Positions 1-3,868 of a DNA stretch of 6,736 nt are shown piece after piece (positions within the stretch are counted from its first letter, which is position 1; each line of letters opens with the position of its first letter). The notes under the pieces are model-generated. The model did no database searches, was not told where the DNA came from, and worked only from the letters and a program-made list of their open reading frames with translations. Origin of the DNA: Deltaproteobacteria bacterium RBG_13_61_14 (GTDB taxonomy: Bacteria > RBG-13-61-14); the NCBI GenBank assembly GCA_001797815.1, contig MGQK01000089.1, positions 8,993 through 15,728 on the forward strand. Direction: 5' to 3'. A program made the position numbers and the translations under genes.

Positions 1-332
1 TTATTGCGGAGGATGGTCTCGGCCACCGCCATCAGCCGGTCGGCCAGGCCCTGCCGGCGCTGCTTGGGGCGGACGTCAATGGTCACGATCTGGGCGGTGT
101 GCTGGCCCCGGGCCTGGAGGATGATGAAAGCGAGGAGCTCGCCCTTGGCGGTCTTCACGCCCAGGCTTAAACAGTCCGGGCTTTGCAGGCAATATTCAAA
201 GACGTCGCGGCCGAAGGCGACGCCGGGCCGGAAGCAGAGCCGGTCGAGCGCGTGAGCGGCGTCCACGTCTGGCAGGGAAAGCGCGGTGATTTCTCCCGGG
301 GTGCGGGTTCGGGGCGCTTTGGCCTTGGGCAT
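1..332 (-). CDS. GNAT-family N-acetyltransferase (RimI-like), 3' end cut by window edge
   Basis: Reading leftwards from an ATG at 332-330, the frame stays open for 110 codons to the window edge, so the C-terminus is missing. The visible protein begins MPKAKAPRTRT. After a basic, probably disordered start of about 12 residues comes a beta-alpha region resembling the RimI N-terminus (around LDRLCFRPG, residues 29-37). The acetyl-CoA-binding motif A is clear near residues 83-98: a hydrophobic strand (IVTIDVRP) followed by QRRQGLA, matching the GNAT pyrophosphate loop Q/R-x-x-G-x-G/A. Members of this family transfer acetyl groups from acetyl-CoA to protein N-termini or small amines; the substrate here cannot be told. 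The start lies 9 bases after the stop of the ClpX-like gene, with only a weak GGA upstream, so cotranscription and translational coupling are likely. Fold assignment is confident; specificity is not. Confidence 0.82.
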   Translation of the reverse strand, partial: MPKAKAPRTRTPGEITALSLPDVDAAHALDRLCFRPGVAFGRDVFEYCLQSPDCLSLGVKTAKGELLAFIILQARGQHTAQIVTIDVRPKQRRQGLADRLMAVAETILRN

Positions 333-341
333 GATCCGGTT

Positions 342-1418
342 TCAGGCCTGGGAGAGCTTCTCCCGGACTTCCGGCGCGCCATAGACAATGCGCTCGCCCC
401 GGTTCTCCGGCGCGTCGAACATCACGTCGTGCATCAGCTCCTCGAAAATGGTGCGCAGGCCCCGGGCGCCGACCTTGCGTTTTTTGGCAAAGGCCACGAT
501 CTCCCGGAACGCGGCGGGGGTGAAATCGAGCTCGATGCCGTCCAGGGCCAGGAGCGCCTTATACTCGTTGAGCACCGAGTCGGGCGGTTCGGTGATGATC
601 CGTTGCAACTCCGGCTCCGAAAGCTCGTCCAGCTCCACGAGCACCGGCACCCGGCCCAGGAACTCGGCGATCATGCCGTAGTCCATCAGGTCCTTGATCG
701 TGACCCGCTGCTCGAGCGGCTTGTGCCCCGAAGAGTCCTCTTGCTGGCCGAAGCCGGCCACGTGGGCCCGGCCGCCGCGCTGAATGTCGGTGAAGGTGCC
801 GGCGCAGATGAAGAGGATGTTGGTGGTGTCCATCTGGACAAAGTCGTGCTTGTTCCAGTGCTGGGTCAGGTTGTAGGGAACGAAGACCTGCGAGCCTTCC
901 AGCATCTTGAGCAGCGCCTGCTGCACCCCCTCGCCCCCGATGTCGCGCGAGCCGGCCCCGGTGCGGCTGCCGTGGTCCCGCCGCGCGATCTTGTCCACCT
1001 CGTCAATGAAGATGATCCCCTGCTGCGCCTTTTCCACGTCCATGTCCGCGGCGTAGAGCAGCTCGCCCGCCATCACCTCCACGTCCTTGCCGTAGTAGCC
1101 GGCCTCCGTGTACTCGGTGGCGTCGGACACGGTGAAGGGCACCTCCAGGATCTCGGCCAGGTTGCGGGCGATGTGGGTCTTGCCGCACCCGGTCGGCCCG
1201 ATCATCAGGATGTTGGATTTCTTGAGCAAGGGCTTCTTGAACCGGCTCTTCCCCGGCGGCTCCTTGGCTACGGCGTGGATCCGCTTGAAGTGGTTGTAGG
1301 CGGCGATGGCCACCGTCCGCTTGGCCCGCTCTTGCCCGATCACATATTGGTCCAGGTATTCGTAGATGTCACGCGGGCTCAGCCAGCGCACGTCTTCATG
1401 CTGCAGGGTCTTGACCAT
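342..1418 (-). CDS. clpX: ClpX-like AAA+ unfoldase lacking the zinc-binding domain
   Basis: The 358-residue protein is a hexameric-type AAA+ ATPase of the ClpX family, which unfolds proteins for the ClpP protease or acts as a chaperone. Visible motifs are Walker A GPTGCGKT (74-81), a GYYG pore loop (107-110; usually GYVG), Walker B IIFIDE (135-140), the arginine finger in EFLGR (R256) and sensor 2 GARGLR (317-322). Classical ClpX is about 420 residues; this one starts almost directly at the segment YLDQYVIGQE, so the N-terminal four-cysteine zinc domain is absent. No in-frame ATG lies just upstream, and the promoter at 1425-1453 abuts the ATG, so the short N-terminus looks genuine. The RKH-loop region (182-192) reads NLTQHWNKHDF without RKH. 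The usual I/L-G-F ClpP-docking tripeptide appears as AGF (221-223). No clpP lies beside it; a GNAT gene follows 9 bases downstream. It is probably a second, specialised ClpX paralogue. HslU is unlikely, since there is no I-domain. Confidence 0.9.
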   Translation of the reverse strand: MVKTLQHEDVRWLSPRDIYEYLDQYVIGQERAKRTVAIAAYNHFKRIHAVAKEPPGKSRFKKPLLKKSNILMIGPTGCGKTHIARNLAEILEVPFTVSDATEYTEAGYYGKDVEVMAGELLYAADMDVEKAQQGIIFIDEVDKIARRDHGSRTGAGSRDIGGEGVQQALLKMLEGSQVFVPYNLTQHWNKHDFVQMDTTNILFICAGTFTDIQRGGRAHVAGFGQQEDSSGHKPLEQRVTIKDLMDYGMIAEFLGRVPVLVELDELSEPELQRIITEPPDSVLNEYKALLALDGIELDFTPAAFREIVAFAKKRKVGARGLRTIFEELMHDVMFDAPENRGERIVYGAPEVREKLSQA

Positions 1419-1424
1419 AATTCC

Positions 1425-1453
1425 ATGATAAAGGATAGCGGGGAAGGGGTCAA
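1425..1453 (-). promoter_or_regulatory. sigma70-type promoter of the ClpX-like gene, apparently leaderless
   Basis: On the minus strand there is TTGACC (1453-1448), a 17-base spacer, then TATCAT (1430-1425). Each box matches the consensus at 5 of 6 positions and the spacing is ideal. Exactly six bases (GGAATT) separate the -10 box from the ATG at 1418. With the usual geometry the first transcribed base would be the A of the start codon, so the mRNA would have no leader. The GGA between box and ATG would not be transcribed. The hexamers and spacing are seen directly; use of the site is inferred. Confidence 0.65.
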
Positions 1454-1577: not shown

Positions 1578-1598
1578 GTGCACCGTGCATTGTCCACT
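1578..1598. repeat. three degenerate 7-base units (GTGCACC type)
   Basis: Consecutive heptamers read GTGCACC, GTGCATT and GTCCACT. The last overlaps the stop codon of the aminopeptidase gene (CTA on the plus strand at 1597-1599). Its unit differs from the other two heptamer runs in this spacer but the period is the same. Confidence 0.55.
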
Positions 1599-2664
1599 AA
1601 ATCAGGAACTTGCCGTTTTTCTGGACCAGTTTGCCGTCGAGATAAAGCTCGCCCTGCCGGCGCAAATCCTTGATCATGTCCCAGTGGATGGCGCTTTTGT
1701 TTTTGCCCCCGGTCTCGGGGTAGGATTTGCCCAGGGCCAGGTGCACGGTGCCGCCGATCTTTTCATCGAGGAGGATATCCTTGGTAAAGCGCCGGATCTT
1801 CTCGTTCAGCCCGATGCCGAGCTCGCCCAGAATTTTGGCGCCGGGGTCGGCCGCGAGCATGGTCTTGAGGAACCGATGGTTCTTTTCCGCCTGGGCCTTG
1901 ACCACCCTGCCCTTCTCGAACCTTAGCCGCACCCCGAACACCTCCCGGCCGCCGTAGATGGCCGGGAACTCATAATAAATGCGGCCCTCGGTCGCGTCCT
2001 CGAGCGGGCCGGTGAAGATCTCGCCGTCGGGCATGTTACACTCGCCGCTGGCCACCACAAAGCGCCGGCCCTGGATGCCCAGGGTGAGGTCGGTTTCCTT
2101 GCCTACGATCCGCACGGTGTCAGCGCGCTCAAAGGCGCGGGCGATCCGGGTCATGCCCTGTTTTTTGCCGGCCCAGTCGAGGTTGGTGGCGCCAAAGAGG
2201 AACCGCTCGTATTCTTCCAGGCTCATCTCGGCTTCCTGGGCCAGCGCCGGGGTGGGGTAGTTGCAGAGCACCCAGCGCACCTTCTCGGTCAAGTGTTCCT
2301 GGATCGGCTTCAGCACCCGGGCCCGGGCCACGGATCTCTCCGGCGCGACCGAGGACATGTCCTTGAGGTTGCCGGGCGCGTGGATCGCCACCAGCGCGTC
2401 CACGTGCTTGGCCTCATACAGGCTGATCTGGGGGAACTCTCGGATCTGCCGCTCGCTCGCCTCCCGCAAAAAAATTTCCCTGGCCTCGTCCAAACCCAAA
2501 GACAGCCGCGGGTGCGCCCCGGCCTGGAGCACTTCCCGGTAAACCGAGAGCACCAGCGGCTTGGCCTGGTCGTTGGCCTGGATCAAGACCGTCTCGCCGG
2601 GTTTGACCTTGAGCGAGTCGCGCACCAGGATCCGGGCTAACCGATTGATCCGGGGATCTTGCAC
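1597..2664 (-). CDS. M29-family metallo-aminopeptidase
   Basis: The protein is 355 residues from a GTG at 2664, close to the 360-410 usual for M29 (AmpS/AmpT-like, thermophilic aminopeptidase) enzymes, which use two metal ions to remove N-terminal residues from peptides, usually in the cytoplasm. The N-terminus (VQDPRINRLARILV) matches the family opening M-x-DPR-x-x-x-LA. The metal-site region appears in order: GEIFTGP (E215), LGELGIG (E281), DEKIGGTVHLALG (E301, H308) and SAIHWDM (H327, D329), which fits the Glu-Glu-Glu-His-His-Asp set of the family. The frame stays open upstream to a TTG at 2763, but those 33 residues have no family resemblance and cover the promoter at 2674-2702, so I chose GTG. 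The gene is monocistronic; the next gene downstream has its own promoter. Family assignment is firm; substrate preference is unknown. Confidence 0.9.
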   Translation of the reverse strand: MQDPRINRLARILVRDSLKVKPGETVLIQANDQAKPLVLSVYREVLQAGAHPRLSLGLDEAREIFLREASERQIREFPQISLYEAKHVDALVAIHAPGNLKDMSSVAPERSVARARVLKPIQEHLTEKVRWVLCNYPTPALAQEAEMSLEEYERFLFGATNLDWAGKKQGMTRIARAFERADTVRIVGKETDLTLGIQGRRFVVASGECNMPDGEIFTGPLEDATEGRIYYEFPAIYGGREVFGVRLRFEKGRVVKAQAEKNHRFLKTMLAADPGAKILGELGIGLNEKIRRFTKDILLDEKIGGTVHLALGKSYPETGGKNKSAIHWDMIKDLRRQGELYLDGKLVQKNGKFLI

Positions 2665-2673
2665 GGCGGGATG

Positions 2674-2702
2674 ATTGTAGCTTGTCCCGGCAAAAGGATC
2701 AA
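2674..2702 (-). promoter_or_regulatory. sigma70-type promoter of the aminopeptidase gene, near-leaderless
   Basis: The minus strand shows TTGATC (2702-2697), a 17-base spacer and TACAAT (2679-2674). The -10 box matches the consensus at 5 of 6 positions and the -35 box at 4 of 6. The predicted first transcribed base is about 2667, only three bases before the GTG at 2664, and no Shine-Dalgarno sequence would fit. The arrangement is nearly the same as in front of the ClpX-like gene. It also decides the start codon, because the longer TTG reading would begin upstream of the promoter. Confidence 0.62.
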
Positions 2703-2844
2703 GAAGAAAGATCGGCTCCGCTCGAGGATTGGTGGGTCGAAACGAAGCTTGATCTCGAGCCAAGAATGGATTTTCTCAGGCAGGACTCCATATAACACAT
2801 TACATTTCCGTATTTAACGGTTCCCGGTTGATTGCCAGAAAAAT

Positions 2845-3721: not shown

Positions 3722-3861
3722 GGGCCTGTTGCCGAAATCATTTTCTGTCGTGTTTTAGTCCGTAGGGGCAGGGCTTGCCCTGCCCATCATCCTGATTTGA
3801 TTGGGCGCGGCAAGCCGCGCCCCTACCCAGGAATCATCAATCCGGTTTGGGCAACAGGCCC
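3722..3861. repeat. composite MITE-like element with 12-bp inverted ends and two GC-rich hairpins
   Basis: GGGCCTGTTGCC (3722-3733) is perfectly inverted at 3850-3861. Nested inside, GTAGGGGC (3762-3769) is inverted as GCCCCTAC (3819-3826) and bounds two perfect 9-bp hairpins. These are GGGCAGGGC/GCCCTGCCC (3766-3785, loop TT) and GGGCGCGGC/GCCGCGCCC (3803-3822, loop AA). It encodes no protein. TAA lies next to both outer ends (3718-3720 and 3862-3864), offset by one base, so a short target duplication is possible but weak. GTAGGGGC-type double hairpins are, to my knowledge, a common dispersed intergenic repeat in several bacterial phyla. Confidence 0.75.
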
Positions 3862-3868
3862 TAAACGA

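Follow-up and report, generated by a model that had tools for sequence, protein, structure and literature searches.

The stretch of DNA analysed here, hereafter the window, is 6,736 nucleotides long and belongs to a genome of 4.7 Mb in 132 contigs, 95% complete. Its central feature is a ClpX-type gene (positions 342..1418, minus strand, ATG start) coding for a 358 aa protein made of the ClpX AAA+ core without zinc domain, which we call clpX3-type. Upstream on the same strand lies a gene for an M29 family metallopeptidase (1597..2763), and a gene for a RimI-like GNAT acetyltransferase (3..332, minus strand) starts 9 bases past the stop codon of clpX3 and extends beyond the edge of the window. 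Just before the ATG, a sigma-70-like promoter, TTGACC-17-TATCAT (1425..1453, minus strand), is predicted from its match to the consensus; the search found one such site, against 0.4 expected in shuffles, and the clpX3 transcript may be leaderless. Two repeated sequences were also seen. Between the M29 gene and clpX3, positions 1485-1575 hold a palindromic AT-rich repeat of the AATCTAAAATCCAAAATC type, present in dozens of copies in the genome (74 matches, with palindromes counted on both strands). A MITE-like element occupies positions 3722-3865; its terminal inverted repeats are GGGCCTGTTGCC and GGGCAACAGGCCC. Elsewhere in the genome it has one copy at 99% and several at 79-84%, the inner part occurring at more places.

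The preliminary description of this locus took the ATPase core of the protein to be intact, and all its motifs are indeed present: Walker A (GPTGCGKT, residues 74-81, positions 1176..1199, nearly all invariant in the alignment of relatives), Walker B (IIFIDE), the arginine-finger region (EFLGR) and sensor 2 (GARGLR). The three altered loops were also correctly read, as GYYG, NLTQHWNKH and AGF align with the GYVG, the RKH loop and the IGF of E. coli ClpX. Pore loop 1 is GYYG instead of the classical GYVG (residues 107-110, 1089..1100), and the pore loop 2 region, GAGSRDI (residues 154-160, 939..959), has S157 and I160 at the places of E. coli T199 and V202. In the counterpart of the RKH loop, PYNLTQHWNKHD (residues 181-192, 843..878), R228-K229-H230 are replaced by Q186-H187-W188, and the ClpP-docking tripeptide is AGF (residues 221-223, 750..758), in a shortened loop; all these motifs are on the minus strand. 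The protein scored 400.6 bits with the NCBIfam profile PRK05342 for ClpX (cut-off 359), and 362.3 with the TIGR00382 clpX profile, slightly below the cut-off of 370.75. It therefore has the core recognised by a family profile, and lacks the C4 zinc domain, the GYVG and the RKH of classical ClpX. The best fold matches of its structure model were solved ClpX structures (6wrf, Z 33.8, rmsd 3.2, 321 aligned; 3hws, Z 33.5, rmsd 2.6, 303 aligned). HslU matches in this search reflect the shared AAA+ fold and nothing more, and the model carries no information on AGF docking.

The N-terminal zinc domain (ZBD) had been described as missing, and this was borne out. The open frame extends only 25 codons upstream of the ATG (383 aa for the whole frame), and a genome search with PF06689, the ClpX zinc domain, matched only the classical ClpX on contig C100 and a small separate protein on C70, with no match near the window; a frameshifted or hidden domain upstream is therefore ruled out. 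Start sites of the relatives are at about the same place. The C70 protein (L016, 2023-2676, genome G000) is a stand-alone ClpX-type zinc domain of at most 218 aa, flanked by sugar-nucleotide genes. That it supplies the missing domain in trans is not supported by its distribution, because such small proteins do not track clpX3: among Myxococcota they turn up whether or not clpX3 is present, and the search for them in several clpX3 genomes gave none.

A second, classical clpX beside clpP was sought in the genome and found on C100, within a classical tig-clpP-clpX-lon operon. This ClpX has the zinc domain, GYVG, RKH and MGF, and is 42.7% identical to the window protein. The window gene, which is not adjacent to clpP, is thus not the sole clpX of its genome; it is a paralogue beside the housekeeping ClpX, and the earlier view that it is a specialised one agrees both with this and with the replacement of the ssrA-reading residues. 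The genome also holds hslVU (on C88) and one true ClpP, in which Ser97, His122, Asp171 and Arg192 of E. coli ClpP are all kept.

By scanning GTDB genomes, we collected about 72 loci with the same signature as the window gene. In an HslU-rooted tree, all 76 clpX3-type rows of the alignment (a few being repeats of one gene) formed one clade with a support of 0.97, apart from 53 classical ClpX; motif counts for the latter are over 52 rows. About 74 columns are invariant among the clpX3-type rows. GYYGKD is present in 76/76 of them, and RKH in none; classical ClpX have GYVG with E or D as the next residue in 52/52 rows. At the level of sequence, such a loop signature is far beyond chance. Whether ZBD-less proteins with AGF form one clade had been set as a check. 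The ZBD-less clade exists, but AGF is not its marker, being rare (3/76) and scattered: it is found in the window protein, in its near relative L018 and in the distant L092, but L019, a less distant member than L092, reads VGF. In the phylum of Myxococcus, matches at E ≤1.4e-108, the range of the clpX3-type clade, were obtained for 91 of 195 genomes, other matches beginning next at about 4e-96; the phylum scanned is that of genome G030, and includes, judging by matching coordinates, the M. xanthus strain that carries member L067 (G231, the same as G078). A wider sample gave a clpX3-type gene in 10 of 389 genomes, two of them from the window's own order. The clpX3-type genomes that we inspected individually also have a classical ClpX. 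A Spirochaetaceae MAG (G082; loci L085, L143 and L152) has several partial ClpX-like genes beside its clpX3-type gene, whose docking loop is greatly lengthened, to 70 residues after the F.

In E. coli ClpX, residues Y153, V154, T199, V202, R228 and H230 are critical for ssrA recognition (PMC7652416). Their counterparts in the window protein are Y, Y, S, I, Q and W, so that five of the six are changed, and the clade is strongly conserved at these places: the second Y, the I and Q186 are found in 76/76 rows, W188 in 74/76, and a T at the T199 position in only 3/76. D192, in the same loop as Q186 and W188, is also kept in 76/76 rows. In E. coli, V154F and R228A raise the KM for ssrA substrates by a factor of 50 or more, and the latter change also moves the preference to an N-degron substrate (PMC7652416). 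With five of six ssrA-critical residues replaced, a changed substrate choice of the window protein is likely, and the changed substrates suggested in the preliminary description gain from both the alignment and the published mutants. A bolder proposal, which we hold as very doubtful, is that the fixed GYYGK / NxTQxWNK / RDI set recognises N-terminal tails in place of ssrA-type ones, the clade being an AAA+ protease lineage apart, with a degron code of its own, and that the adjacent RimI-like acetyltransferase writes or masks the N-degron. A GNAT gene follows clpX3 directly or closely in nine loci (L013, which is the window, L018, L019, L044, L050, L060, L085, L221 and L222), including MAGs labelled Nitrospirae, Nitrospinota and Spirochaetaceae.

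A weak or absent coupling to ClpP had been deduced from AGF and from the absence of clpP next door. As argued, this does not stand: 75/76 clpX3-type rows retain the GF of the docking tripeptide, AGF is one of its rare variants, and tig-clpP-clpX3 operons exist in one branch. The first position is V in 25 rows, L in 18, M in 15, I in 7, P in 5 and A in 3, with single others (V, L, M or I in 65/76), and is more variable than in classical ClpX. The loop itself is shorter on both sides throughout the family, with 13-17 residues before the F, compared with 18 in classical ClpX, and mostly 21-23 after it (25 in the window protein), compared with mostly 28. Moreover, the counterpart of V274, which makes a third hydrophobic contact in E. 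coli, is hydrophobic in 4/76 clpX3-type rows, versus 28/52 classical ones. In E. coli, I268L, F270L, V274A and changes in loop length each impair ClpP binding (PMC7112951), so that the shortened loop and the lost V274 contact make weaker docking likely. ClpP docking of the window protein is probably altered, and it may be lost in some clpX3-type members, that of the window included. If the loop no longer bound ClpP at all, the protein would be a ClpP-independent remodelling chaperone whose clients are only unfolded or remodelled, like yeast Mcx1. We consider this possible but rather unlikely, since a GF core in nearly all rows is hard to explain without a docking partner and the clpP-clpX3 operons of one branch also speak against it, even if the shortened loop, the lost V274 contact, the AGF of the window protein, the crippling effect of E. 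coli point changes (PMC7112951) and the distance between the window gene and clpP would all be in keeping with it.

Linkage to clpP was found in a minority of the family, most clpX3-type members being elsewhere. Genes tig, clpP, a small lipoprotein-like gene and clpX3 are contiguous on the same strand in L068, L075, L079 and L084, and L041/L211 has tig-clpP-clpX3 without the intervening gene, which is thus present in 4/5 contiguous cases. The genomes with this arrangement have a ZBD-bearing classical clpX elsewhere. Some tig-linked ClpPs have lost catalytic residues: Ser is replaced by Gly in L084 (3811-4392), L164 and L165, Asp171 by Asn in L164 and L165, and several have His for Arg192. The genomes of L084 and L164 encode, in addition, another type of ClpP whose triad is intact, and the losses suggest mixed ClpP rings in that branch. 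ClpX3 might then pair in a mixed ring with a dedicated or inactivated, ClpR-like ClpP, and regulate ClpP assembly rather than serve as a general unfoldase. The missing Ser97, Asp171 and Arg192 and the second ClpP invite this reading, but we find it improbable, as the only true ClpP of the window genome has its Ser-His-Asp and Arg192 intact, and most of the family is not clpP-linked. In the clpP-linked branch clpX3 faces a dnaK gene, and in Myxococcaceae a CvpA-DnaJ-DnaK block; DnaK-type neighbours fit a role of clpX3 in protein quality control. One or two genes for secreted or lipoprotein-like products (clusters c16 and c25) lie beside the clpX3-dnaK block, downstream of dnaK, in L068, L075, L078, L079, L081 and L084.

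The order M29 peptidase, clpX3, RimI-like GNAT is found in the window and also in L018 and L019, the two nearest genomes. HslU is a related AAA+ unfoldase, part of a two-part protease, with a Lys after the pore-loop GYxG, and a Lys also follows GYYG in the clpX3-type proteins, where classical ClpX has Glu or Asp. The conserved order and the HslU-like Lys raise the idea that ClpX3 partners the M29 metallopeptidase, or HslV, instead of ClpP. This is highly unlikely: the M29 neighbour is confined to three genomes of one order, for which reason this peptidase was set aside as a partner, and the window protein scores 216.4 with the TIGR00390 HslU profile, below the cut-off of 362.45, and, at 358 aa, has no insertion of the size of an I-domain, nor room for one.

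One member of the clade has been studied. Wan et al. (2024) examined the three ClpX of M. xanthus, of which ClpX3 (MXAN_2743) has neither N-domain nor RKH and is dispensable under normal conditions (PMC11423568). Loss of clpX3 impairs growth at 36 C; this defect is rescued by clpX3, and better by an N-truncated ClpX2 than by full ClpX2, and the ClpX3 protein was insoluble (PMC11423568). We found no further paper on ClpX3 in the open literature. Of the two classical ClpX of M. xanthus AM003 (G078), one shares 67.24% and the other 64.82% identity with E. coli ClpX, exactly as published for ClpX1 and ClpX2 (PMC11423568). Because of this match, the ZBD-less protein of this strain, L067 (58.6% identical to the window protein), is by sequence ClpX3. 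L153 (G078, C41) and L147 are a further ClpX/HslU-like AAA+ protein with a 386-aa frame; L153 shares 33.7% identity with E. coli ClpX, and does not belong to the three published ClpX. An origin of ClpX3 by horizontal transfer was guessed by Wan et al. (PMC11423568); the breadth of the clade points rather to an old family with a fixed loop signature. The greater variation at the first xGF position might have betrayed a duplicate decaying under relaxed constraint, but this is hardly credible given the invariant columns, the new motifs fixed across lineages, and the phenotype of the M. xanthus deletion (PMC11423568).

We propose, with a probability of about 60%, that the window protein is a ClpX3-type unfoldase which works alongside the housekeeping ClpX, serves ClpP as a second motor independent of adaptors, and has a degron preference of its own. 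It would be a hexameric ClpX-family AAA+ motor that has lost the zinc/adaptor domain and whose substrate-facing loops have been rebuilt. Loss of the ZBD would free it from ZBD-binding adaptors. With V154, T199, V202, R228 and H230 replaced, it would not read ssrA-type Ala-Ala tails, and its loops would grip tails of a different class, or unfolded protein. The xGF loop, shortened but retained, would dock on the single ClpP of the cell, probably more weakly or transiently. Under heat and proteotoxic stress, the motor would thus deliver substrates to ClpP, and may in part work on its own as a free unfoldase, a role proposed on the basis of the M. xanthus phenotype. Four elements of this proposal are directly evident from the sequences: intact ATPase motifs, absence of the ZBD, loop changes fixed across the clade, and the presence of classical ClpXP in addition. 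For at least one branch of the family, the tig-clpP-clpX3 operons predict continued work with ClpP.

Compared with known systems, the window protein is 42.6% identical to classical E. coli ClpX (b0438) over 366 aligned columns. It shares with it the AAA+ core, Walker motifs, arginine finger, sensor 2 and loop positions, and differs by the absent ZBD, by GYVG changed to GYYG, RKH to QHW and T199/V202 to S/I, and by a shorter docking loop. Unlike HslU, it has an xGF loop and no I-domain, and its genome has its own hslVU. Yeast mitochondrial Mcx1 is a ZBD-less ClpX relative that acts without ClpP; the likeness drawn here is one of description, and whereas an Mcx1-like protein would have lost the ClpP-docking motif, the window protein and its family keep the GF core. 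M. xanthus ClpX3, for which L067 of strain AM003 stands in, belongs to the same clade, and, like the window protein, it has no zinc domain and no RKH, is encoded apart from clpP, and exists in addition to classical ClpX. The two differ by their neighbours (SpeA and CvpA-DnaJ-DnaK in M. xanthus, M29 and GNAT in the window) and by the docking tripeptide (MGF versus AGF), and a role in heat tolerance is known for M. xanthus ClpX3 only. The novelty is modest, as this kind of protein was already described in 2024 as M. xanthus ClpX3, and the family-level description goes beyond that paper. The clpX3-type family offers a natural test of rewired ClpX substrate choice and ClpP docking, and ClpX3, published as an odd and possibly horizontally acquired Myxococcus gene, now appears as a member of an old and widespread family with a fixed signature.
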